Source: Lactococcus sp. S-13
GTDB taxonomy: Bacteria; Bacillota; Bacilli; Lactobacillales; Streptococcaceae
Assembly: GCF_004210295.1 (NCBI RefSeq)
Contig: NZ_SDAK01000001.1
Span: 1,922,001-1,986,000, forward strand
DNA length: 64,000 bases
Direction of reading: 5' to 3'
Shown: piece after piece, positions 10,945 to 21,449 of the stretch
How the letters are laid out: the number at the start of each line of letters is the position of its first letter
Numbering within the stretch: the stretch's first letter is position 1
Program-made: the position numbers and the translations under genes
The notes under the pieces: model-generated
The model's input: the letters and a program-made list of their open reading frames with translations, nothing else
Database searches by the model: none
Told to the model about the DNA's origin: nothing

Positions 10945-12045
10945 ATGAATACTTTAAAAACTATAGGTTTCAAAAAACATTTAATGACAGCTATTTCCTT
11001 TTTTCTTCCTGTTGTATGTGCTGCTGGGTTTTTACTTGCAATTGGAAATATAATGGGTGGTAAAAGTATAGTTGATTTTTCAAAATCATTTGCTTTTGCA
11101 GATACGCTATCGACTATGGGGGGATATGGCCTAGGGTTTCTGCCAGTAGTTGTTTCAACTGCGATTGCATATTCTATTGCGGACAAACCAGGAATAGCTC
11201 CTGGTCTAATTGTCGGTTTTGTAGCCCATGGAATCAATACTGGTTTTATTGGCGGAATTGCTTCGGGTTTTGTGGTAGGGATAATTACCTTGATTTTCTA
11301 TCAAAATATAAAAGTACCGAAATGGATGGAAGGGCTTATGCCTACACTTATTGTTCCATTTGTCTCCTCTTTTCTTGGAGGAATGGTTATGTACTATGTT
11401 CTTGGTACACCAATCAATTATTTAGTAAAAATATTAACTAACTATTTAATAAAGCTTGATCCATCACAACTATTAATTTATGGATTAATCATTGGAGTTT
11501 TGTCTTCTATTGACTACGGGGGACCCATCAATAAAACTGTGTTTGCTGTTGTTTTTACAATGTTTTCAGAAGGTATCTATCCCCCTCTTACCGTTTTAAT
11601 TGGTGCATCTATGATTACGCCATTTGGGTACGGATTTGTGTTCTTTTTGCAAAAAGTATTTAGAAAAAATGTTTTTGATAAACAAGATGCAGAGACTTTA
11701 AAATCAGCTATTCCTATGGGATTCTGTCAAATTACTGAGGGGTGTTTTCCCATTATTTTCAAAAATTGGTTAAAAAATATGATTGCAACCGGAATTGGTG
11801 GTGGCGTATTTGGAGCAGTAGCAATGTTCTGGGAGTGTGATAGTCATATCCCTGCATCTGGGATGTTTGCAGTGCCAACTATGACAGGGAATCATGGTTT
11901 ACTTTTTGTCCTTGCCCTTGCCATTGGGTCATTAGCACAAGCAATAACTTTTATTATTATAATGCAACCTGTTGACCCAAATGAGATGATTGAATTCGAA
12001 GAGAAAGAAGAAGAAATTGATCTTAAGGATTTCAAAATTTCATAA
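10945..12045 (+). CDS. PTS fructose-family EIIC permease
   Basis: 366-residue polytopic permease. Starts MNTLKTIGFKKHLMTAISFF, followed by about nine hydrophobic segments. FruC-family landmarks are the GLIVGFVAHGINTGFIGGI region and SSIDYGGPINKTVF. It forms the transport channel with the separate EIIA and EIIB. Ribosome site AAGGAGCG sits seven bases before the ATG. Confidence 0.9.
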   Translation: MNTLKTIGFKKHLMTAISFFLPVVCAAGFLLAIGNIMGGKSIVDFSKSFAFADTLSTMGGYGLGFLPVVVSTAIAYSIADKPGIAPGLIVGFVAHGINTGFIGGIASGFVVGIITLIFYQNIKVPKWMEGLMPTLIVPFVSSFLGGMVMYYVLGTPINYLVKILTNYLIKLDPSQLLIYGLIIGVLSSIDYGGPINKTVFAVVFTMFSEGIYPPLTVLIGASMITPFGYGFVFFLQKVFRKNVFDKQDAETLKSAIPMGFCQITEGCFPIIFKNWLKNMIATGIGGGVFGAVAMFWECDSHIPASGMFAVPTMTGNHGLLFVLALAIGSLAQAITFIIIMQPVDPNEMIEFEEKEEEIDLKDFKIS

Positions 12046-12055
12046 GGAGAATAAA

Positions 12056-12373
12056 ATGGGGTATGAAAAAAATATAGAAAAATTTTTAAAAGATTCAAAA
12101 ATAGCATTTACTCAACAAGAAATAGATAGTATAGACTATGCAGATTTTGGATTAAATAATATCCGAGAAGAAGGATTAAATCTGATTGTCTACATTAATA
12201 ATGAACGTTATTGCGCTAAAGAAATGGCATTGTTAGCAGGGCAAACTTGTCCTGAACATAAGCACCCCCGCAGAGGCCAAAACCAGGAGATTGAAGGAAA
12301 AGAAGAAACCTTCCGTGTTCGCCAAGGACGAGTTTATCTTTATGTAGAAGGAGAAAACAACGTAGCAAAAATT
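12056..12373 (+). pseudogene. D-lyxose (mannose/lyxose) ketol-isomerase type gene, truncated by an IS
   Basis: The first about 106 codons (ATG 12056, ribosome site AAGGAGA) match the N-terminal half of the cupin-type D-lyxose isomerase family: YADFGLNNIREEGLNLIVYI, NNERYCAKEMALLAGQTCPE, HKHPRRGQNQEIEGKEETF and VRQGRVYLYVEG, including the cupin metal ligands His-x-His...Glu. The family is about 220 residues. Here the frame runs into transposase sequence near 12373 and the cupin C-terminal half is missing. The open frame continues as a chimera to 12691. It is the last gene of the PTS operon, so loss of the isomerase probably disables or alters sugar use. Confidence 0.75.
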
Positions 12374-12836
12374 TCTGCTAGATTGCCAGAAAGGAATAAA
12401 GATCTGGTTATGGATTGCTTCTTACAAGCTTGTGGGAAAGAACATTCTCAGCCTGGTTTGATTGCCCATATTGATCAAGGAAGTCAATATACAAGCTCAC
12501 GTTATCAATCCCCCCTTCGTCAAGTCGGGGCTCAATCTAGCATGAGTCGTAAAGGAATTCTTTATGACAATGCAATGATGAAGTTTTTTTGTAAGACGCT
12601 AAGAGGGAACTTATTAATGATGCTCATTTTAAGGCAAGAGCTGAGGCTACCCAAGAAATTTTTATATATATTGAGACCTACTACAATATAAGAAGAATGC
12701 ATTCAGCTCTAGATTACAACTCTCCAAAAGACTTTGAAAAATCAGTATTTAGTTTTTCGTTGACTTTCCACATGGGCCCAAATTTATGGGTGTACGACAT
12801 GAATGAGATAGGAATATCTCATTTTTTTGTATAATA
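12374..12836 (+). mobile_element. IS3-family transposase (OrfB) 3' remnant
   Basis: Translated text ARLPERNKDLVMDCFLQACG, HIDQGSQYTSSRYQ, SSMSRKGILYDNAMMKFF is the end of an IS3-family integrase core (second Asp and final Glu region; here the catalytic Glu context is MMKFF instead of MMESF). A frameshift near 12600 moves the remainder (NDAHFKARAEATQEIF, RRMHSALDYNSPKDFE) to another frame, which stays open to 12836. The 5' two thirds of the IS are absent. The right end is not precisely located; CTTTCCAC near 12765 may be part of it. Confidence 0.75.
12802..12828 (+). terminator. Terminator after the IS remnant
   Basis: AATGAGATA-GGAA-TATCTCATT followed by T5. Confidence 0.75.
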
Positions 12837-13291: not shown

Positions 13292-14806
13292 ATGAAAAAA
13301 CCTACACAATACACACTTTTGGCAACCGCAGCTCTTGGGATTGTTGCAGTTGGAACACATGCCAAAGCGGCAGATGTTGCGCATGGTACTACCATTAATA
13401 ATTCAGTTATAATTGATCAAAATCTTAATAGATTGATCACAGCAAGCGGCGGAACTTATATCATTGACGGTAAAAAAGTATATGATCCCTCCTCGGGCCA
13501 AGTCATTGTAGCCCCACCAGTTACACCTCCTGCTACACCAGATCAACAAACACCAAATCAACAAACATCAACTGTAACGCCAAGTGCTACACCAGCTGCA
13601 ACACCAGTTGCAGTGCCACAAGCAAATCAACAAACATCAACTGTAACGCCAAGCGCTACACCAGCTGCAACACCAGTTGCAGTGCCACAAGCAAATCAAC
13701 AAACATCAACTGTAACGCCAAGTGCTACACCAGCTGCAACACCAGTTGCAGTGCCACAAGCAAATCAACAAACATCAACTGTAACGCCAAGTGCTACACC
13801 AGCTGCAACACCAGTTGCAGTGCCACAAGCAAATCAACAAACATCAACTGTAACGCCAAGTGCTACACCAGCTGCAACACCAGTTGCAGTGCCGACTAAA
13901 ACAACCACTAAAGTAACAAAAGCACCAACTGCAACACCAGTTGCAACTCCCGAAAACGTACCAACACCAAAAGCACCGGTAAAAACTCCAGTTGCAATAC
14001 CAGCACCACCAGTTGAATTTGTACCGAAAAAACGTATTCCATCAGCTGCAGTAGCACCTAAAATACCGACGCCAACTGCTACACCAGTTGCAACACCAAT
14101 TGCTACACCAAAAGTACCATTGATTCCAACTCCTTTGCCACAAACACCCAAAGCGTTCGCAACACCTACAGCTATTTATGTAGTACCCTTAAAAGTATCT
14201 GTGCAAGCAGCAGCACAAGACGGAACTTTGACACAATATATCCAAAAACCATCAGTATTATCAACAAATAGTGGCAAGTATGATGATGATAAATTTCCGC
14301 TTCGCAAACTTGGCACAATTTTTACAAGCCGTATCGGAGTAAATAAACCAGTTGCTACGCCAACTGCGACACCAGTTGCTACGCCAACTGCGACACCAGT
14401 TGCTACACCAACTGCAAAACCAGTTGCCACACCAACTGCAAAACCAGTTGCTACGCCAACTGCAAAACCAGTTGCTACGCCAACTGCAAAACCAGTTGCT
14501 ACGCCAACTGCAAAACCAGTTGCTACACCAACTGCAAAACCAGTTGCTACACCAACTGCGACACCAGTTGCTACGCCAACTGCGACACCAGTTGCCACAC
14601 CAACTGCAAAACCAGTTGCAAATCCAGCACCAAAAGTTGGTGCTATAAACGGACCAATCGTTAAACGTTCAACACTCGCAAAGTTGCCATTAACAGGCAG
14701 TAGAGAAGGACTCAAATTTTCGACTATGGGAGCACTTATTTTCGGAATTACTGCAACTTTTGTAGCAAGAAGGAGATATGTTGCAAAACATGATCGCAAA
14801 TATTGA
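13292..14806 (+). CDS. LPXTG cell-wall-anchored Thr/Pro/Ala repeat protein
   Basis: 504 residues. The signal peptide [20 protein letters not shown] ends in THAKA-AD. A short unique N-terminal part follows, then five copies of a 23-residue unit ([20 protein letters not shown] plus PQA), a unique Pro-rich middle, a short charged region (residues 325-350), eleven copies of the octad PVATPTA[T/K], and the sorting signal LPLTG followed by a hydrophobic helix and the charged tail [13 protein letters not shown]. The low-complexity stalk is like those that lift adhesins from the wall, but no globular binding domain is obvious. Antisense open frames here are shadows of the repeats. An exported sortase-like protein is encoded next. 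Confidence 0.88.
13556..13894 (+). repeat. Five tandem 69-bp coding repeats
   Basis: Units begin at 13556, 13625, 13694, 13763 and 13832. Copies are nearly identical at DNA level (for example AGTGCT versus AGCGCT), indicating recent expansion. All are in frame (23 codons). Confidence 0.93.
14348..14611 (+). repeat. Eleven tandem 24-bp coding repeats
   Basis: Each unit encodes PVATPTAT or PVATPTAK; order T,T,K,K,K,K,K,K,T,T,K. Copy-number variation would lengthen or shorten the surface stalk in steps of eight residues without frameshift. Confidence 0.93.
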
Positions 14807-15850: not shown

Positions 15851-15897
15851 ACATTTGGATTGATAGCAAATAAGCGGATATGTATACAAACAAATCA

Positions 15898-15929
15898 GCT
15901 CACAACTGTTAAGTTGTGAGCGTTTTTTA
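15898..15929 (+). terminator. Terminator after the sortase-like gene
   Basis: GCTCACAAC-TGTTAA-GTTGTGAGC, a perfect nine-pair stem, then GTTTTTT. Confidence 0.85.
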
Positions 15930-15990
15930 TGTGTTATATTTAAAGGAAAAGAGCGGCTCTTAACTTAGGGTTATAAGCGGAAGGGAAAAG

Positions 15991-16562
15991 ATGAAAATCG
16001 GATATGCACGTGTTAGCACATTGCAACAAACATTGGAACATCAAATTGAAACTTTGAAAGAGGCAGGAACTGAAAAAATTTACAGGCGCTACTGTTGAAC
16101 GAACTCAATTTTATATTTTGTTGCAGTAATTAAAAATCAGGGGATACTTTAATTGTCGCCAGAATGGATCGCTTTGCAAGAAACACTCGAGAAGCGCTAG
16201 AAATCGTTCAAGAGTTATTTGCTCAAGGCATCAAAGTTCATATTTTAAATATCGGACTCATTGATAATACACCAACAGGTCAACTAATTTTTACTGTTTT
16301 TAGTGCCTTTGCTCAATTTGAACGAGATCTCATCATAACGAGAACTCAAGAGGGGAAAAATTTTGCTAAACTTCATGATCCCAATTTTAAAGAGGGACGT
16401 CCAAAGAAATTTTCTGAAGAACAAATTCAATTTGCTTATGAATTGAAGCAGCAAGGAATGACATACAAGATGATTGAGCGAAAAACAGGAATAAGTATCG
16501 CTACTCAAAAAAGACGATTTATGAAAGCTTTAAAAGATAAAGCGGTTGACAAAGAAGTTTGA
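15991..16562 (+). pseudogene. Serine resolvase/invertase gene, frameshifted
   Basis: ATG 15991 (ribosome site AAGGGAAA) opens MKIGYARVSTLQQTLEHQIE, the classic serine-recombinase start with the catalytic Ser10 in ARVS. A small deletion around 16080-16140 breaks the frame in the region expected to read KFTGATVERTQF. The rest reads VARMDRFARNTREALEIVQE, FSAFAQFERDLIITRTQEGK and a C-terminal DNA-binding helix-turn-helix (EGRPKKFSEEQIQFAYELKQ). Plasmid-type resolvase, presumably non-functional. Its 3' end overlaps the antitoxin-RNA promoter of the next locus. Confidence 0.88.
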
Positions 16563-16573
16563 AGTGTTATAAT
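16546..16573 (+). promoter_or_regulatory. Promoter of antitoxin RNA, copy 1
   Basis: TTGACA (16546-16551), 16-base spacer, TATAAT (16568-16573): both hexamers are consensus. It lies at the very 3' end of the broken resolvase gene. Confidence 0.85.
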
Positions 16574-16579
16574 GTAATT

Positions 16580-16648
16580 AACGAAGATTGTAGTGAGCAT
16601 ATTCTCACCACATAAACCGAGGGACTGCCAAAAACCCTCGGTTTTTTT
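16580..16648 (+). ncRNA. RNA II-type antisense antitoxin RNA, copy 1 (par/Fst family)
   Basis: Predicted transcript of about 69 bases from seven bases after the -10 to the T-run. Its 5' half carries ACGAAGATTGTAGTGAGCAT and CTCACC, a direct repeat of the sequence spanning the toxin start codon and ribosome site (16779-16808), so the RNA can base-pair with the toxin mRNA there. Its 3' half is a terminator hairpin (ACCGAGGG...CCCTCGGT, T7) whose loop carries CTGCCAAA. That is complementary to TTTGGCAG in the loop of the toxin mRNA terminator. This is the RNA I/RNA II layout known from plasmid pAD1 par: loop contact first, then pairing at the direct repeats. RNA boundaries are inferred. Confidence 0.8.
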
Positions 16649-16665
16649 ATTTTTTAATAAAAAAA

Positions 16666-16686
16666 CGTCCCTCTGCCAAAGGGACG
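16666..16686 (-). terminator. Toxin mRNA terminator, copy 1
   Basis: On the minus strand CGTCCCT-TTGGCAG-AGGGACG followed by T7. The loop is complementary to the antitoxin terminator loop. Confidence 0.8.
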
Positions 16687-16695
16687 AATAGTGGA

Positions 16696-16797
16696 TTAAA
16701 GGCGCTTATGTCGGTTTTTTAACCAGTCCTTGACCAGCTCAAGGATTACTCCAACCACTATTGGAGCGACAACTGATACGAAGATTGTTATGAGCAT
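16696..16797 (-). CDS. Fst-family type I toxin, copy 1 (33 residues)
   Basis: Minus-strand ATG at 16797 with an excellent ribosome site AAGGAGGTGAG. The product begins MLITIFVSVVAPIVVGVI, continues with a short acidic/basic stretch containing W25, and ends NRHKRL. It has the family hallmarks: one hydrophobic membrane helix with Ala-Pro-Ile-Val-x-Gly, then a charged tail. Fst-type peptides damage the membrane unless translation is blocked by the antisense RNA. The 5' leader can fold so that CCTTTCT pairs with AGAAAGG of the ribosome site, as in the pAD1 upstream helix. It is too short for normal gene finding. Recognition rests on peptide sequence plus the complete RNA II arrangement. Confidence 0.88.
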   Translation of the reverse strand: MLITIFVSVVAPIVVGVILELVKDWLKNRHKRL

Positions 16798-16850
16798 AAA
16801 CTCACCTCCTTTCTAAGGCAAAATTGCATCAGAAAGGTGCGCCACTAATT

Positions 16851-16856
16851 ATTATA
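16851..16856 (-). promoter_or_regulatory. -10 element of toxin copy 1
   Basis: TATAAT on the minus strand (ATTATA on plus), 54 bases upstream of the toxin start. The -35 is weak. The same element is conserved in copy 2 at 18562-18567. Confidence 0.6.
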
Positions 16857-17002
16857 GTATAAAATTGCTTAGCTACCCTACCTCTCAAATATTGGAAAAA
16901 CAACGAAAACCAGACCTAAAAAGCTCATGGGGGTTGCTTTATAATCTATTTTTTGTATGGCGATTTATTCAATGTTAGTCCAATATTGGGAGAAAATATC
17001 AT

Positions 17003-17018
17003 GTCACTTATAATTGAC
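17003..17018. promoter_or_regulatory. Candidate XRE operator 1 (GTCA-N8-TGAC)
   Basis: GTCACTTATAATTGAC overlaps the -35 region of the downstream promoter and has the same half-sites and spacing as 17050-17065. Confidence 0.5.
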
Positions 17019-17042
17019 ACAAGGAGTTTTTTGTGGTATTTT
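17014..17042 (+). promoter_or_regulatory. Promoter of the XRE/DUF3278 operon
   Basis: TTGACA (17014-17019), 17-base spacer, TATTTT (17037-17042). Confidence 0.55.
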
Positions 17043-17049
17043 TAATGTA

Positions 17050-17065
17050 GTCACATATATATGAC
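17050..17065. promoter_or_regulatory. Candidate XRE operator 2 (GTCA-N8-TGAC)
   Basis: GTCACATATATATGAC lies between promoter and coding region, 47 bases (about 4.5 helical turns) from operator 1. It covers the ATG at 17061, supporting the later TTG as the true start of the regulator. Confidence 0.5.
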
Positions 17066-17081
17066 CAAAGGAGTTGATTAC

Positions 17082-17285
17082 TTGAATAACGTAAGAATTT
17101 TTAGAGAAAAGGAAGGATTATCACAATTTGCCTTAGCTAAAGAAATTGGAGTAGCCAGGCAAACAATAAATTTAATAGAAAACAATAAGTACAATCCATC
17201 ATTAGATTTATGTATAAAATTGGCAAAGAGATTAAATTCAGATTTAAATGAACTATTTTGGGAGGAAAAAGCTGATGAAAAATAA
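17082..17285 (+). CDS. XRE-family helix-turn-helix regulator
   Basis: 67 residues from TTG 17082, which has ribosome site AAAGGAG eight bases upstream. The in-frame ATG at 17061 has no ribosome site. The product is a bare Cro/CI-type HTH: NNVRIFREKEGLSQFALAKE, then IGVARQTINLIENNKYNPSL and a final helix pair. This short class is usually paired with a small membrane protein, as here, and probably autoregulates through the GTCA-N8-TGAC sites. Its end overlaps the next gene by 11 bases. Confidence 0.85.
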   Translation: MNNVRIFREKEGLSQFALAKEIGVARQTINLIENNKYNPSLDLCIKLAKRLNSDLNELFWEEKADEK

Positions 17286-17808
17286 AGAACCTTTGAGAAT
17301 ACGGATAATCAGAAAATTTTATGGAATTGCTGGAGATTATGATGAATATAAAGAAAAAGAAGTAAATAGAATAGGAAATAATGCTTTTATGGGGTTATGG
17401 TGGTATTTTCTTATTGCAAGTTTTATAGCACTCTTTTTCGCATTTAAATACCCAGTACAAACATTATGGGTTTATCTTGGGAGTAATATACTTGTTGGGC
17501 TATTTGCCGTAAGTCTATATCTAATTATTGCCAGTCAAAAGAGTAGGTTGAATGATGTTGAAGTAGAAACATCAGACTTAAAAGTAGTTAAGAAAAAAGT
17601 CTTGAGGGCCGGGGTATTGGCTGGCATTCAATTTGGAATAAGTATGTATTTTTTAAGGATGCTAATGCTCTATGTAAGTGGTGATGGAAATATTGTTTCA
17701 TATTTCCACTCTCCAAAGAATTTAATCATGTCAATTTTACAAGCAATATTTTTTGGCGGATTTATCTACGCTATAGGTCGATTTAGGATAAAGAGAGCTA
17801 CTAAGTGA
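17275..17808 (+). CDS. DUF3278-type membrane protein
   Basis: 177 residues from ATG 17275 with ribosome site GGAGG (17261-17265); a longer in-frame start at 17248 overlaps the regulator more and lacks a ribosome site. An N-terminal amphipathic part (IRIIRKFYGIAGDYDEYKEK) is followed by four hydrophobic segments (about 42-60, 66-85, 118-138, 152-170). It matches the pattern of DUF3278 proteins encoded after small XRE regulators in Lactobacillales. Function is unknown. Confidence 0.7.
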   Translation: MKNKEPLRIRIIRKFYGIAGDYDEYKEKEVNRIGNNAFMGLWWYFLIASFIALFFAFKYPVQTLWVYLGSNILVGLFAVSLYLIIASQKSRLNDVEVETSDLKVVKKKVLRAGVLAGIQFGISMYFLRMLMLYVSGDGNIVSYFHSPKNLIMSILQAIFFGGFIYAIGRFRIKRATK

Positions 17809-17856
17809 CAAACCAAAAAAGAAATCAATTTCACGTTGCTTGAGAAGCTTGAAAAA

Positions 17857-17884
17857 ACTCATAACCGTTAAGTTATAAGTTTTT
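17857..17884 (+). terminator. Terminator of the XRE/DUF3278 operon
   Basis: ACTCATAAC-CGTTAA-GTTATAAGT then TTTT; one mismatch in the stem. A member of the recurrent hairpin family. Confidence 0.65.
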
Positions 17885-18002
17885 CCATTTTTTATATCTA
17901 TCCATTTGCTTACTATTGCTTTATGTCGTTTTATAATTTATACTTGAGTCAGGTATAGATTATGTGTGAAAGGAAGTATGGGATGATTAATTTCTGTTCT
18001 AT

Positions 18003-18116
18003 ATGTTAGGTGTAAATGAAATGACTCTAATTGGTATTGTTTTATTAGTTTTTATTGCTTTGGTGATAGCTATAATTCGATTCTTAATTAAATTTTTAAA
18101 AAATAAAAGTGATTAA
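18003..18116 (+). CDS. Possible 37-residue single-membrane-span peptide
   Basis: Open frame MLGVNEMTLIGIVLLVFIAL, continuing with a hydrophobic helix and the basic tail IKFLKNKSD. The composition is that of a genuine one-helix membrane peptide, but no good ribosome site precedes either Met, and AAGGAAG at 17970 serves an unrelated short frame. It could be a real small protein or decayed sequence. Confidence 0.3.
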   Translation: MLGVNEMTLIGIVLLVFIALVIAIIRFLIKFLKNKSD

Positions 18117-18261
18117 GATATGCCTTAAACACTGTGTTGTTGATTATAAGTAAAAACTTTGAACTGTACTATTAAAAATGGATAGAAAAGAAAATTCCAT
18201 AACAGGAATAAGTGTTGCCACTCCAAAAGAAGATTTGTAAAAACAACAAAGAATAAAGTAG

Positions 18262-18289
18262 TTGACAAAGAATATTGAAATGTTATAAT
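18262..18289 (+). promoter_or_regulatory. Promoter of antitoxin RNA, copy 2
   Basis: TTGACA (18262-18267), 16-base spacer, TATAAT (18284-18289), in the same position relative to the RNA as copy 1. Confidence 0.85.
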
Positions 18290-18295
18290 AAAAGT

Positions 18296-18362
18296 AACGA
18301 AGATTTGTGGGAGTGGTATCTCACAAGACAAGCCGAGGAACTGCGAATTTCTCGGTTTTTTT
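18296..18362 (+). ncRNA. RNA II-type antisense antitoxin RNA, copy 2
   Basis: Predicted about 67-base RNA. ACGAAGATTTGTGGGAGTGG plus TATCTCAC repeats the toxin start/ribosome-site region at 18489-18517. The terminator hairpin CCGAG...CTCGG (T7) has CTGCGAA in its loop, complementary to TTCGCAG in the loop of the copy 2 toxin terminator. The loop differs from copy 1 (CTGCCAAA), and the partner has changed to match. Ends inferred from promoter and T-run. Confidence 0.78.
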
Positions 18363-18374
18363 ATGCAAAAAAAA

Positions 18375-18398
18375 CGCCCAGTTCTGCGAAACTGAGCG
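18375..18398 (-). terminator. Toxin mRNA terminator, copy 2
   Basis: Minus-strand stem CGCTCAGTT/AACTGGGCG (one mismatch) with loop TCGCAG, then a T-run. Confidence 0.75.
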
Positions 18399-18406
18399 AA
18401 TGTGGA

Positions 18407-18508
18407 CTAATGGCGCTTATGTCGGTCTTTCAACCAATCCTTGACCAGCTCAAGGATTACTCCAACCACAATAGGAGCGACTACTGATACGAAGATTTGC
18501 AGAAGCAT
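18407..18508 (-). CDS. Fst-family type I toxin, copy 2 (33 residues)
   Basis: Minus-strand ATG at 18508, ribosome site GGAAGGGGGTGAGA. The product begins MLLQIFVSVVAPIVVGVI and ends DRHKRH; apart from residues 3-4, 28 and 33 it is the same as copy 1. Same membrane-helix plus charged-tail layout and the same local RNA arrangement, so it is likely active and controlled by its own antisense RNA. The plus-strand frame at 18275-18487 across this locus has no ribosome site and is rejected. Confidence 0.87.
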   Translation of the reverse strand: MLLQIFVSVVAPIVVGVILELVKDWLKDRHKRH

Positions 18509-18561
18509 TATCTCACCCCCTTCCTAAGGCATTTCTGCATTGGTAAGGTGCGCCACTGATT

Positions 18562-18567
18562 ATTATA
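18562..18567 (-). promoter_or_regulatory. -10 element of toxin copy 2
   Basis: TATAAT on the minus strand, 54 bases upstream of the start, the same spacing as copy 1. Confidence 0.55.
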
Positions 18568-18642
18568 GCATAAAAACAATCATCTATCATATCTCTCAAA
18601 TACTGAAAAATTAACGAAAAAATGACTCATAATGGTTAAATC

Positions 18643-18667
18643 TGATGTGACCCCCAAAAGTTAGACC
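18643..18667 (+). repeat. IS left inverted repeat
   Basis: TGATGTGACCCCCAAAAGTT plus AGACC; see the element entry. Confidence 0.85.
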
Positions 18668-18696
18668 AAAAATCTAACATTTGGAGGTCTTTTATT

Positions 18697-19271
18697 ATGA
18701 CAAAATACTCGCCAGAGTTTAAACTAAAAATTGTAAGGGAATATTTAGAAGGGGAAATAAGCGCTGCTGAGTTGGCACAAAAATACAACATCTTGTCTTC
18801 TGGGGGAGGGAAGGTTGGATAAAAGAATATCGCCTCAGGGGAAAGGCTGCTTTTCAAAAAAATTCTAAAGAGAAAAAGAATTATAGTACCGAGTTTAAAG
18901 AAAATGCAGTAAAATTATACTTAACAACTGATTTTACCTATCAAGAAGTTTCCTGCCAGCTAGATATTCGTACTATGGGGCTACTTTGTACTTGGGTAAA
19001 TCAATACAGAAAATATGGAGAGATTCCTGAACCAAAAAAACATGGTCGAAGACGGAATATGGAGTTAAAAAATCCTATGAGTGACGTATCTAATTCCTCA
19101 GATGAAGCATATTTACAACATATCAAAGAACTAGAAAAAGAACTTCGCTATGCCAAAATCGAGGTCAAATATTTAAAAGGGCTACGGAGATTGGGAAACA
19201 AGGTTCCAATGAACAAAAAGCAAAACTCATTCACAATCTCCGAAAAAAATTCAAACTCAAAGAAATCTTAG
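18697..19271 (+). pseudogene. IS orfA (HTH protein), one frameshift
   Basis: ATG 18697 starts MTKYSPEFKLKIVREYLEGE, an IS3-family OrfA HTH (AAELAQKYNI). Near 18800 one base is lost (expected text ends in a Trp-Ile-Lys; here SSGGGKVG stop). The next frame then continues KEYRLRGKAAFQKNSKEKKN and a second HTH (NAVKLYLTTDFTYQEVSCQL) to 19271, with a coiled-coil-like end (HIKELEKELRYAKIEVKYLK). Unless the frame change is bypassed, full OrfA is not made. Confidence 0.8.
19172..19178 (+). promoter_or_regulatory. Slippery heptamer for -1 frameshift between orfA and orfB
   Basis: T TTA AAA in the orfA reading frame, the canonical X XXY YYZ form, placed where orfA and orfB overlap. Slipping back one base joins KYLK to RATEIGKQGSNEQK in the orfB frame. 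Confidence 0.6.
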
Positions 19272-19402
19272 AGATTACAAAGTTTCCTAAAGCGACATAC
19301 TTCTATTGGAAAGCACGCTTTGAACGCCCTAATACAGATGAAAGTCTAGAGCAAGAACTTCTCTTAATCCATGATAAAAACCCTAATTATGGATATCGTC
19401 GG

Positions 19403-20092
19403 ATGGTACAAGCATTAAGACGGGAAGGATTCTTTATCAATCATAAAAAAGTTCAACGTTTAATGAAAAAGTTAGGAATTTGTGTGTCCTCCTACTGGCA
19501 TAAGTCACGGAAGTACAATTCGTATAAAGGAACTGTAGGTAGAATCGCTAAAAATAAACTTCGTCGTCGCTTTTGGACTAGCATTCCTCATCAAAAAATC
19601 ACAACAGATACGACAGAATTCAAATATTATGAAGATGGGGTTCAACGTAAGCTTTATCTTAACCCTTTTCTTGACCTCTTTAACAACGAAATTATTGCAT
19701 ATAATATTTCTAAAGCTCCTACTTATCAATCAATTTCAAATGCCTTAGAACAAGCAGTACAAATTACCTCAGATTGTCAATACAGACGTACTTTCCACTC
19801 TGACCAAGGATGGGGATATCAAATGAAACAATATTCTATACTCCTCAAGAAAAATAAAATATTTCAATCTATGAGCCGTAAAGGAAATTGTTATGATAAT
19901 GCGGTGATGGAAAATTTTTTGGGGTTACTCAAGCAAGAAATTTATTATGGTTATGTTTTCTTGTCTTTTAAAGCACTTCAAACAGCCCTTAAAGATTTTA
20001 TTTATTATTATAATCATGAACGAATTAAAAAGAAATTAGGCTGGAGATCTCCAATAGAGTATCGTCTGTGCCACGAAATAATAAATAAATAA
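19403..20092 (+). CDS. IS3-family transposase OrfB (DDE integrase core)
   Basis: The first ATG of the frame is at 19403, but the frame is open back to the slippery site near 19175 (text KLIHNLRKKFKLKEILEITK, YGYRRM), so the natural product is probably an OrfA-OrfB fusion. The catalytic triad is visible: Asp in TDTTEFKYY, Asp in HSDQGWGYQ, Glu in YDNAVMENFLGLLKQE. The end NHERIKKKLGWRSPIEYR is typical. The orfB part appears intact. Confidence 0.9.
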   Translation: MVQALRREGFFINHKKVQRLMKKLGICVSSYWHKSRKYNSYKGTVGRIAKNKLRRRFWTSIPHQKITTDTTEFKYYEDGVQRKLYLNPFLDLFNNEIIAYNISKAPTYQSISNALEQAVQITSDCQYRRTFHSDQGWGYQMKQYSILLKKNKIFQSMSRKGNCYDNAVMENFLGLLKQEIYYGYVFLSFKALQTALKDFIYYYNHERIKKKLGWRSPIEYRLCHEIINK

Positions 20093-20106
20093 AGATTGAT
20101 AAAAAT

Positions 20107-20135
20107 TTGACTTAATAATATCTATTAGATAAAAT
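20107..20135 (+). promoter_or_regulatory. Promoter of the IS passenger gene
   Basis: TTGACT (20107-20112), 17-base spacer, TAAAAT (20130-20135), between orfB and the phosphorylase gene. Confidence 0.65.
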
Positions 20136-20217
20136 CAGGCAATACAGTATATATTACTATGAACAATTATAAAATATATTTTAGTTATTCATACAATAGT
20201 TTAAAGGAGGAATAAAA

Positions 20218-20994
20218 GTGTGGTATTTTGAAGAAGATAACACAAGCCCAATAATCACCGGCAAAAAGCAGGCTCAATCAAATCATGGGAATATTAATCT
20301 TAAGCCCTTGCCAAAAACTGCCGTTCTTTTGTATATGAGGGGGTTAGAATCTATAAAAGAAAAGTATCAACTTGAACTAATTTCGAAAAAATTTCCTAGA
20401 TTTTTAAATTCTTGCCCAATTTATAAAGTTCCAGAGAGTGAAGTCTGTTTATTAGATGGGGGACGTGGTGCCCCAATGGCAGTAGATACGATTGAAGTCC
20501 TCAAATCATATGGTGTTGAGAACATAATTTCAATAGGTTTAATGGGTTCAATAGTAGGGGGAGTTGATGTAGGTGATATTGTAATCCCAAGTAAGGCTTA
20601 TGTAGAAGAAGGGGCATCATTACATTATTATAAAAAAATTGAATATAGCACACCAAATTTAGAATTATTAAATGTAATTTCTGAAAAAAGTCCTGACTCA
20701 ATAGTAAGACCAATTATTACCACAGACTCAATATATAGGCAAACTTATTATAAAGAAAAGTTATGGAGAAACAAAGGTTGTGTAGGAATTGATATGGAAA
20801 CGTCAGCTTTATTTTCAGTTGGAAGGTATTTAAGTATGAACGTTTGCTCAGCGTTAATGGTCTCTGATAAACATCCCATTGATCAATTTCAAGAAAGTTG
20901 GGGATGGAAATTAACTGAAAGTCAGCGACAAGAATTTTTAGAAAATATGCTTAATATTATATTGTTAACTTTTAAAACAAAAAAGATGAGGTAA
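20218..20994 (+). CDS. Nucleoside phosphorylase family protein (IS passenger)
   Basis: 258 residues. GTG start with ribosome site AAAGGAGG seven bases upstream. PNP/uridine phosphorylase-family motifs: LLDGGRGAPMAVDTIEVLKS, IISIGLMGSIVGGVDVGDIV, the base/ribose-binding GIDMETSALFSVGRYLSMNV, and SALMVSDKHP. It cleaves a nucleoside with phosphate to base plus (deoxy)ribose-1-phosphate; the preferred base is not predictable. It has its own promoter, lies wholly between the IS inverted repeats, and its stop is 38 bases from the right IS end, with a hairpin (AGATGAG...CTCATCT) in between. There is no functional link to either neighbour outside the element. Confidence 0.85.
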   Translation: MWYFEEDNTSPIITGKKQAQSNHGNINLKPLPKTAVLLYMRGLESIKEKYQLELISKKFPRFLNSCPIYKVPESEVCLLDGGRGAPMAVDTIEVLKSYGVENIISIGLMGSIVGGVDVGDIVIPSKAYVEEGASLHYYKKIEYSTPNLELLNVISEKSPDSIVRPIITTDSIYRQTYYKEKLWRNKGCVGIDMETSALFSVGRYLSMNVCSALMVSDKHPIDQFQESWGWKLTESQRQEFLENMLNIILLTFKTKKMR

Positions 20995-21008
20995 TTTCTC
21001 ATCTAAAA

Positions 21009-21032
21009 GTCCAACTTTTGGGGTTCACATCA
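21009..21032 (-). repeat. IS right inverted repeat
   Basis: Inward reading TGATGTGAACCCCAAAAGTT, partner of 18643-18667. Confidence 0.85.
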
Positions 21033-21071: not shown

Positions 21072-21449
21072 TTATATGTGTTGTCGTCGAATTTTTAATC
21101 GATTCATAAAGAATGCTAACGGTGGAAATATGATGAATGTAGATAAAGCGTGGACGAAGTCGAAAGGAACGCCAGAAAGGTAATACCCTAAAAAGCCGCT
21201 GGTTCCAAAACCATAGATTATTCCTGAGAATAGAGTAATGCAGATTCCGTAAGAAAATACACCAGTCACAAGTATCGTGATAATCATAATCCATAAACTA
21301 TTTGTAAGCCCTAAAAAAAGGGAAAAAGCAAAAAACATTGCAGTGATTGGTTTAACATTAGGGAGAAATGCGAACCAAATTCTAAGAGTTGAGCACAGCG
21401 CTGCTAAAACAGCGATTAATGCTAGGCGGTGTATTAAGTTATTGTTCAT
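21072..21449 (-). CDS. ECF transporter S component, cobalamin type (shortened)
   Basis: 125 residues, very hydrophobic: RLALIAVLAALCSTLRIWFA, KPITAMFFAFSLFLGLTNSL, then FLGYYLSGVPFDFVHALSTF. This resembles the solitary B12-type S components, but the family is about 170-190 residues with six membrane segments; here the middle (after ILVTGVF and after SGIIYGF) looks collapsed, so part of the fold is missing. The start and end are family-like. It is last in the ethanolamine operon, where cobalamin uptake makes sense, and would rely on the EcfA1A2T module at the left end of the window. Possibly a decayed gene. Confidence 0.55.
   Translation of the reverse strand: MNNNLIHRLALIAVLAALCSTLRIWFAFLPNVKPITAMFFAFSLFLGLTNSLWIMIITILVTGVFSYGICITLFSGIIYGFGTSGFLGYYLSGVPFDFVHALSTFIIFPPLAFFMNRLKIRRQHI

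Follow-up and report, generated by a model that had tools for sequence, protein, structure and literature searches.

A nucleoside phosphorylase superfamily gene between the ends of a decayed IS3-family element in Lactococcus sp. S-13

The element and its genes

The window analysed here is a 64,000-nucleotide stretch of the main contig (NZ_SDAK01000001.1, positions 1,922,001 to 1,986,000) of the 2.27-Mb genome of Lactococcus sp. S-13, which consists of four contigs. It contains an insertion sequence (IS), a decayed member of the IS3 family (IS150-type), in which a complete enzyme gene occupies a short slot ahead of the right end. This is an unusual arrangement. The features of the locus are listed in Table 1.

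Table 1. Features of the element and of its left flank, in window coordinates
Feature	Position	Strand	Remarks
Left flank, Fst-type plasmid module	18201..18639	.	95.7% identical to contig C2; ends three bases before the IS
Left inverted repeat (IRL), IS3/IS150-type	18643..18666	+	22/24 against the right repeat; termini as in plain relatives
orfA, 5' piece	18697..18822	+	Premature stop after 41 codons; 62% identity to L007 orfA residues 1-37
orfA, remainder in another frame	18804..19271	+	tblastn, L007 orfA residues 37-188, 64% identity
orfB, IS3-type DDE transposase, intact frame	19190..20092	+	NCBIfam transpos_IS3; no internal stop
Promoter-like site before the enzyme gene	20107..20135	+	TTGACT-17-TAAAAT, 10/12, 17-nt spacer
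Ribosome-binding site AAAGGAGG	20203..20210	+	Read in the sequence
PNP_UDP_1 (nucleoside phosphorylase superfamily) gene, 258 codons, GTG start	20218..20994	+	Pfam E 3e-25; NP-I fold model
3' hairpin of the IS	20984..21004	-	Terminator-like on the minus strand only; overlaps the last codons of the enzyme gene
Right inverted repeat (IRR)	21009..21032	+	28 bases, 21005-21032, identical to L007 4972-4999

The terminal repeats (TGATGTGACCCCCAAAAGTTAGAC / TGATGTGAACCCCAAAAGTTGGAC) agreed at 22 of 24 bases and at 19 of the first 20, compared with a best pairing of 17/24 in 60 base shuffles of the end regions. They begin and end with the TG...CA of their relatives, and as these termini were located at the matching place in 60 of 62 plain relatives, the window repeats represent the family ends. 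No second right-end-like 18-mer started between 20081 and 21050 (the next best had seven mismatches), in agreement with the original prediction that no other right-end repeat follows orfB. That prediction had also placed orfA, orfB and the enzyme gene between the repeats, with the stop of the gene 38 bases from the right end. The distance was borne out by the coordinates, and the repeats, orfB and a full-length gene were all recovered, but orfA proved to be frame-broken.

The orfB product scored 220.3 bits against the NCBIfam model transpos_IS3 (cut-off 160), identifying it as an IS3-type DDE transposase. Instead of the overlapping, readable orfA and orfB of the IS3 family, the element has an open orfB and an orfA broken after 41 codons. 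No sibling transposase close to orfB was present in the same genome, where the nearest orfB was 28% identical. The element itself is single-copy there, the sole other piece being a 61-bp left-end-like remnant (80%).

As predicted, a ribosome site (AGGAGG) lies ahead of the GTG start of the enzyme gene. The promoter ascribed to the gene is likewise present as a sequence matching at 10 of 12 positions; since such sites are frequent in the region (22 found versus 13.2 ± 4.0 expected), it is suggestive of a promoter and not more.

Family and likely activity of the encoded enzyme

Assignment of the product to the NP-I nucleoside phosphorylase superfamily (PNP_UDP_1) was supported by both family and fold, and the predicted identity is thus supported at superfamily level. 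The protein reached 89.2 bits against Pfam PNP_UDP_1 (cut-off 25.1, E 3e-25), and its structure model (mean pLDDT 76.6, with a poorly modelled stretch over the first 25 residues) matched purine nucleoside, adenosine and methylthioadenosine phosphorylases with a TM of ~ 0.7 and a Foldseek E of ~ 2e-17. It remained below all NCBIfam cut-offs, and far below those for DeoD, uridine phosphorylase and AMP nucleosidase; a score of 62.7 bits against the DeoD model (cut-off 230) places it outside the DeoD type.

Similarity to NP-I enzymes such as DeoD, adenosine phosphorylase and MTAP extends beyond the fold to individual residues. In an alignment of 14 sequences, Met193 and Glu194 were invariant and Asp217 nearly so. 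Differences from these phosphorylases concern the GDP-x-R loop, which was absent from the window protein and 12 others (a GDP loop was seen in L164 alone), and the position ahead of the G-x-x-G turn, where the window protein has Ser and the aligned phosphorylases carry Arg. The loop is a phosphate-binding motif. Because this phosphate loop is missing, a nucleosidase activity appears as possible as a phosphorylase activity, judging by residue roles.

Close relatives of the enzyme were scarce. Among 395 genomes of the order, 181 (own genome included) had a match at 1e-8, the best of these relatives being ~ 30% identical; 18 of the 24 relatives read out were 254-aa proteins. A peptide scan of genome_contigs returned 29 stretches with no close relative among them, all 43 plasmid records retrieved were below 60% identity, and phage and viral relatives were limited to one phage record at 28% and one viral contig at 26%. 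On the Lactococcus plasmid pLLNCDO702A (L176), a resolvase gene was observed to adjoin a distant gene for a nucleoside phosphorylase (24.5% identity).

Sequences downstream of orfB in related copies

IS150-type elements such as ISLla3 of Lactococcus share with the window element the orfA/orfB layout, the DDE transposase, the TG...CA ends and the 3' hairpin, and the window orfB is 67-68% identical to an ISLla3-annotated copy (L038). We collected orfB 3' contexts from plasmids, from a family search of 335 genomes and an order search of 395 genomes (30 loci each), and from a species-level collection (80 of 330 loci), so that the survey represents a sample of loci. After exclusion of repeated 3' contexts, of hits with less than 45% identity or falling short of residue 285, and of loci that contain the window element (L001, L004, L008, L135, L144, L179), 124 distinct contexts were retained.

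The right end was found within 80 bp of the orfB stop in 106 of these 124 contexts, whereas the window element has 916 bp between the orfB stop and the right repeat. A position directly after orfB is therefore the normal one, and very nearly the constant one, which would speak against a passenger in this family; the single cargo-bearing exception besides the window element was L007. The other 18 contexts comprised seven at a contig end, four with a far right end (L184 at 132 bp, L197 at 101 bp, L133 with a nested IS and L007 with cargo) and seven in which no right end was within reach (L009, L022, L061, L076, L086, L205, L208). Of the last group, L208 turned out on reading to be a plain copy, and inspection of L076 and L022 gave no explanation for the missing right end.

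Several further candidates were rejected as cargo-bearing copies, as the extra frame after orfB belonged to another mobile element. By Pfam, this was a Mutator/IS256-type element in L086, an IS91-type element in L061, a group II intron in L205 and an IS3 element, starting within the 3' hairpin, in L009. The frame in L133 was IS3-type with 28% identity to orfB, and that in L049, a locus outside the 124 contexts, was an annotated IS3 transposase. The recurrence of inserts after orfB in L086, L061, L205, L009 and L133 suggests that this gap is permissive.

Hairpin and right-end pieces also occur on their own, with no adjacent orfB, in two genomes (L134, L137; also L209, L210). One such solo piece lies downstream of a translation-GTPase gene, and the pieces start close to the A-run that also marks where the window cargo has its right junction.

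In aligned plain Lactococcus copies, an A-run and a hairpin mostly come before the right repeat; it is with this hairpin of gene-free copies that those of the window element and of L007 align. The terminator scan gave two terminator-like sites (1.4 ± 1.5 expected), with the window hairpin scoring on the minus strand only, so it would stop incoming outside transcripts rather than end the enzyme message. The alignment and the strand of the score together rule out the hairpin as the enzyme gene's own terminator; contrary to the original prediction, it is an IS-type structure recurring in gene-free relatives. Homologs of the enzyme end at, or some residues ahead of, the start of the IS-type 3' sequence. 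The last codons of the window gene overlap that sequence, and it is there that the gene runs into the right end of the IS.

L007 is carried by the L. lactis plasmid pUC06A (NZ_CP130278) and was the only other cargo-bearing copy found in the survey. Its left part is 73% identical to the window element, its orfB is split over two frames, and orfB is followed by a gene for a 139-aa protein, a MarR gene, the hairpin and a right end with 28 bases equal to those of the window. The slot is hence the same in both copies, from the orfB stop to the hairpin and right end, but the cargo genes differ. By eye, the L007 cargo is preceded by a promoter-like sequence. The 139-aa protein had no Pfam match; in Lactococcus, the closest homolog of the MarR protein (45.5% identical) is encoded next to a counterpart of the 139-aa gene, annotated as 'polyketide cyclase'. 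This counterpart operon resides on the L. garvieae plasmid NZ_CP118952 and has a third gene with an EVE domain, which L007 lacks. No IS end of the window type was present on NZ_CP118952.

Insertion site and origin of the arrangement

Target duplications of 3 or 4 bp flanked 63 of 76 readable plain copies (readable in 76 of the 106 near contexts; 45/62 when the count was limited to 3-bp duplications). Neither cargo-bearing copy had one: the bases at the two ends were AATC and GTTT in the window element and TATT and AAGT in L007. Under random loss, absence from both would be expected with a probability of ~ 0.035 (15x14/78x77, calculated by hand for a comparison chosen post hoc).

The left flank of the element consists of plasmid-type DNA (resolvase, Fst-type toxin-antitoxin) that was partly matched by 147 Lactococcus plasmid records. 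Beyond the left-flank homology, contig C2 of the same genome differs from the right flank of the window element. No other plasmid was found in which the Fst module is linked to the C2 continuation, with no record covering 80% of the query, and C2 is therefore an imperfect empty site. The gene of the right flank yielded no empty chromosomal site either, its homologs in three genomes (G001, G012, G003) being located among other genes. The resolvase and Fst module occurs at 15897-18639 of the main contig and also on C2, and is split by a helix-turn-helix and DUF3278 pair (17061-17808). Beside the right end, a small membrane protein is encoded on the minus strand (21072-21449); its homologs in G001, G012 and G003 are ~ 43 residues longer in mid-protein, so the protein may be internally deleted.

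No second location of the IS and enzyme unit was detected in the own genome, the 17 other genomes of the genus, genome_contigs, the 43 plasmid records or the phage and viral records, and the check for identical orfB-phosphorylase pairs at other loci was accordingly negative. The proposal of an IS with a mobile passenger gene thus holds for the anatomy, in that a left and a right end belonging to one IS type enclose the gene. Movement as a unit finds no support in the absent duplication, the single copy, the lack of a close sibling transposase, the broken orfA and a right flank unlike C2.

Two explanations, about equally likely, were considered for this combination. According to the first, to which we give an even chance, the window element is a decayed single IS3/IS150-type copy with the enzyme gene captured in the gap between orfB and the hairpin. 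The presence of the ends, orfB and the gene in place, the IS-type hairpin, and plain copies that mostly leave no room after orfB count for capture, as do L007, where other cargo fills this slot ahead of an identical 28-base right end, and the permissive nature of the gap shown by the nested mobile elements. Counting against it are the missing duplication, the C2 mismatch, the single copy, the solo right ends and the operon-like cargo of L007.

According to the second explanation, which falls a little short of an even chance, the locus is a mosaic of two insertions: an IS landed beside a phosphorylase gene, probably plasmid-borne, and lost its own right end, and the hairpin and right repeat of another copy came to lie on the far side. 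The gene would never have been a passenger, and the frame of two IS ends would be a by-product of deletions or recombination. Solo right ends without orfB, as in L134 and L137, make such a chance frame around the enzyme gene possible. Both cargo-bearing copies have broken transposase genes in addition to lacking a duplication, the flanks of the window element do not match those of its C2 homolog, and the L007 cargo resembles a truncated plasmid operon, all of which is consistent with a mosaic. However, two independent cases share one layout, with orfB complete as far as its stop codon position, followed by cargo and only the hairpin and right end, which random deletions would not favour. The absent duplication, flank mismatch, single copy and solo right ends fit either origin, the mosaic or an insertion followed by recombination.

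That the phosphorylase gene is native to the chromosome of the species, with IS pieces fallen nearby, is improbable. Its full-length frame and the presence of a dedicated ribosome site speak for this reading, but none of the 17 other genomes of the genus had a homolog at E 1e-20, its G+C content is 32.8% versus 38.5% for the window, and the left flank is plasmid-type. Least probable is that the mobile element carries a gene of nucleotide-based defence, a role suggested earlier and otherwise favoured by the mobile setting alone, as no PADLOC family matched at E 0.1, the element contains no partner gene, and the relatives found were phosphorylase-superfamily proteins.

If the gene was captured, an accessory gene, perhaps plasmid-borne, would have entered the gap after orfB, where inserts may be tolerated because the transposase and both ends remain whole. 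Members of the IS3 family move by a circle route of transposition, by which an active transposase could have carried the cargo along with the ends. Later recombination at the seam between plasmid-type and chromosomal DNA would have taken away the duplication that matched at the two ends, and the break in orfA would have frozen the element, which is probably immobile now. The expected reaction of the enzyme would be cleavage of a nucleoside or of a related N-riboside by phosphorolysis or hydrolysis, the gene perhaps being expressed from its own promoter.

A broader reading, less likely than not, is that Lactococcus hosts a lineage of IS3/IS150-type elements in which the stretch from the orfB stop to the hairpin with right end acts as a cargo slot, capturing different accessory genes that the IS itself then moves. 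The cargo would then be the phosphorylase-superfamily gene here and the polyketide-cyclase-like gene with MarR on pUC06A.

IS with passenger genes are referred to as transporter IS (tIS), a kind described in the available text of PMC3129680 and PMC9330008. Like the window element, a tIS is one IS with transposase genes and an unrelated gene between two ends. The examples in the accessible part of PMC6305408 come from the IS481, ISL3 and ISNCY families and are given with target duplications, whereas the window element is of IS3/IS150 type and has none; the sole IS3/IS150 element in the table of that source has 0 passengers. A gene unrelated to transposition does lie between the IS ends in the window, which corresponds to the anatomical part of the tIS definition and not to demonstrated movement, and we therefore call the element tIS-like. 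Mobile insertion cassettes (MIC), named in the available text of PMC3129680, resemble the window element in that IS ends enclose a gene and no functional transposase is now encoded with it. A MIC has no transposase gene between its ends; the window element keeps orfB, which is most of the transposase gene, and is thus not a MIC.

No IS3/IS150-type element with a passenger gene appeared in the available portions of the open literature, including PMC10886379, PMC7371123, PMC6305408, PMC3129680 and PMC9330008; subscription papers and ISfinder lie outside this scope, and the result is no proof of absence. The window element would be a new variant of the tIS-type arrangement, if it is a unit at all.

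When IS carry ordinary genes, the distinction between an insertion sequence and a transposon becomes blurred. IS3-type elements are very common in bacteria, and if they do load cargo at a fixed permissive slot, genes would be spreading along a path that tends to be overlooked in annotation, where such a gene passes for a neighbour of the IS. If the mosaic is the true origin, the locus is a useful warning against taking a gene for part of a transposon on the strength of a single left and a single right end around it.

Elsewhere in the window, a frame at 11990-12691 begins like a sugar isomerase and is joined to part of an rve (integrase core) transposase, and a long surface-protein-like frame at 13292-14806 has many TATPVATP-type repeats and a cell-wall-anchor-like end.
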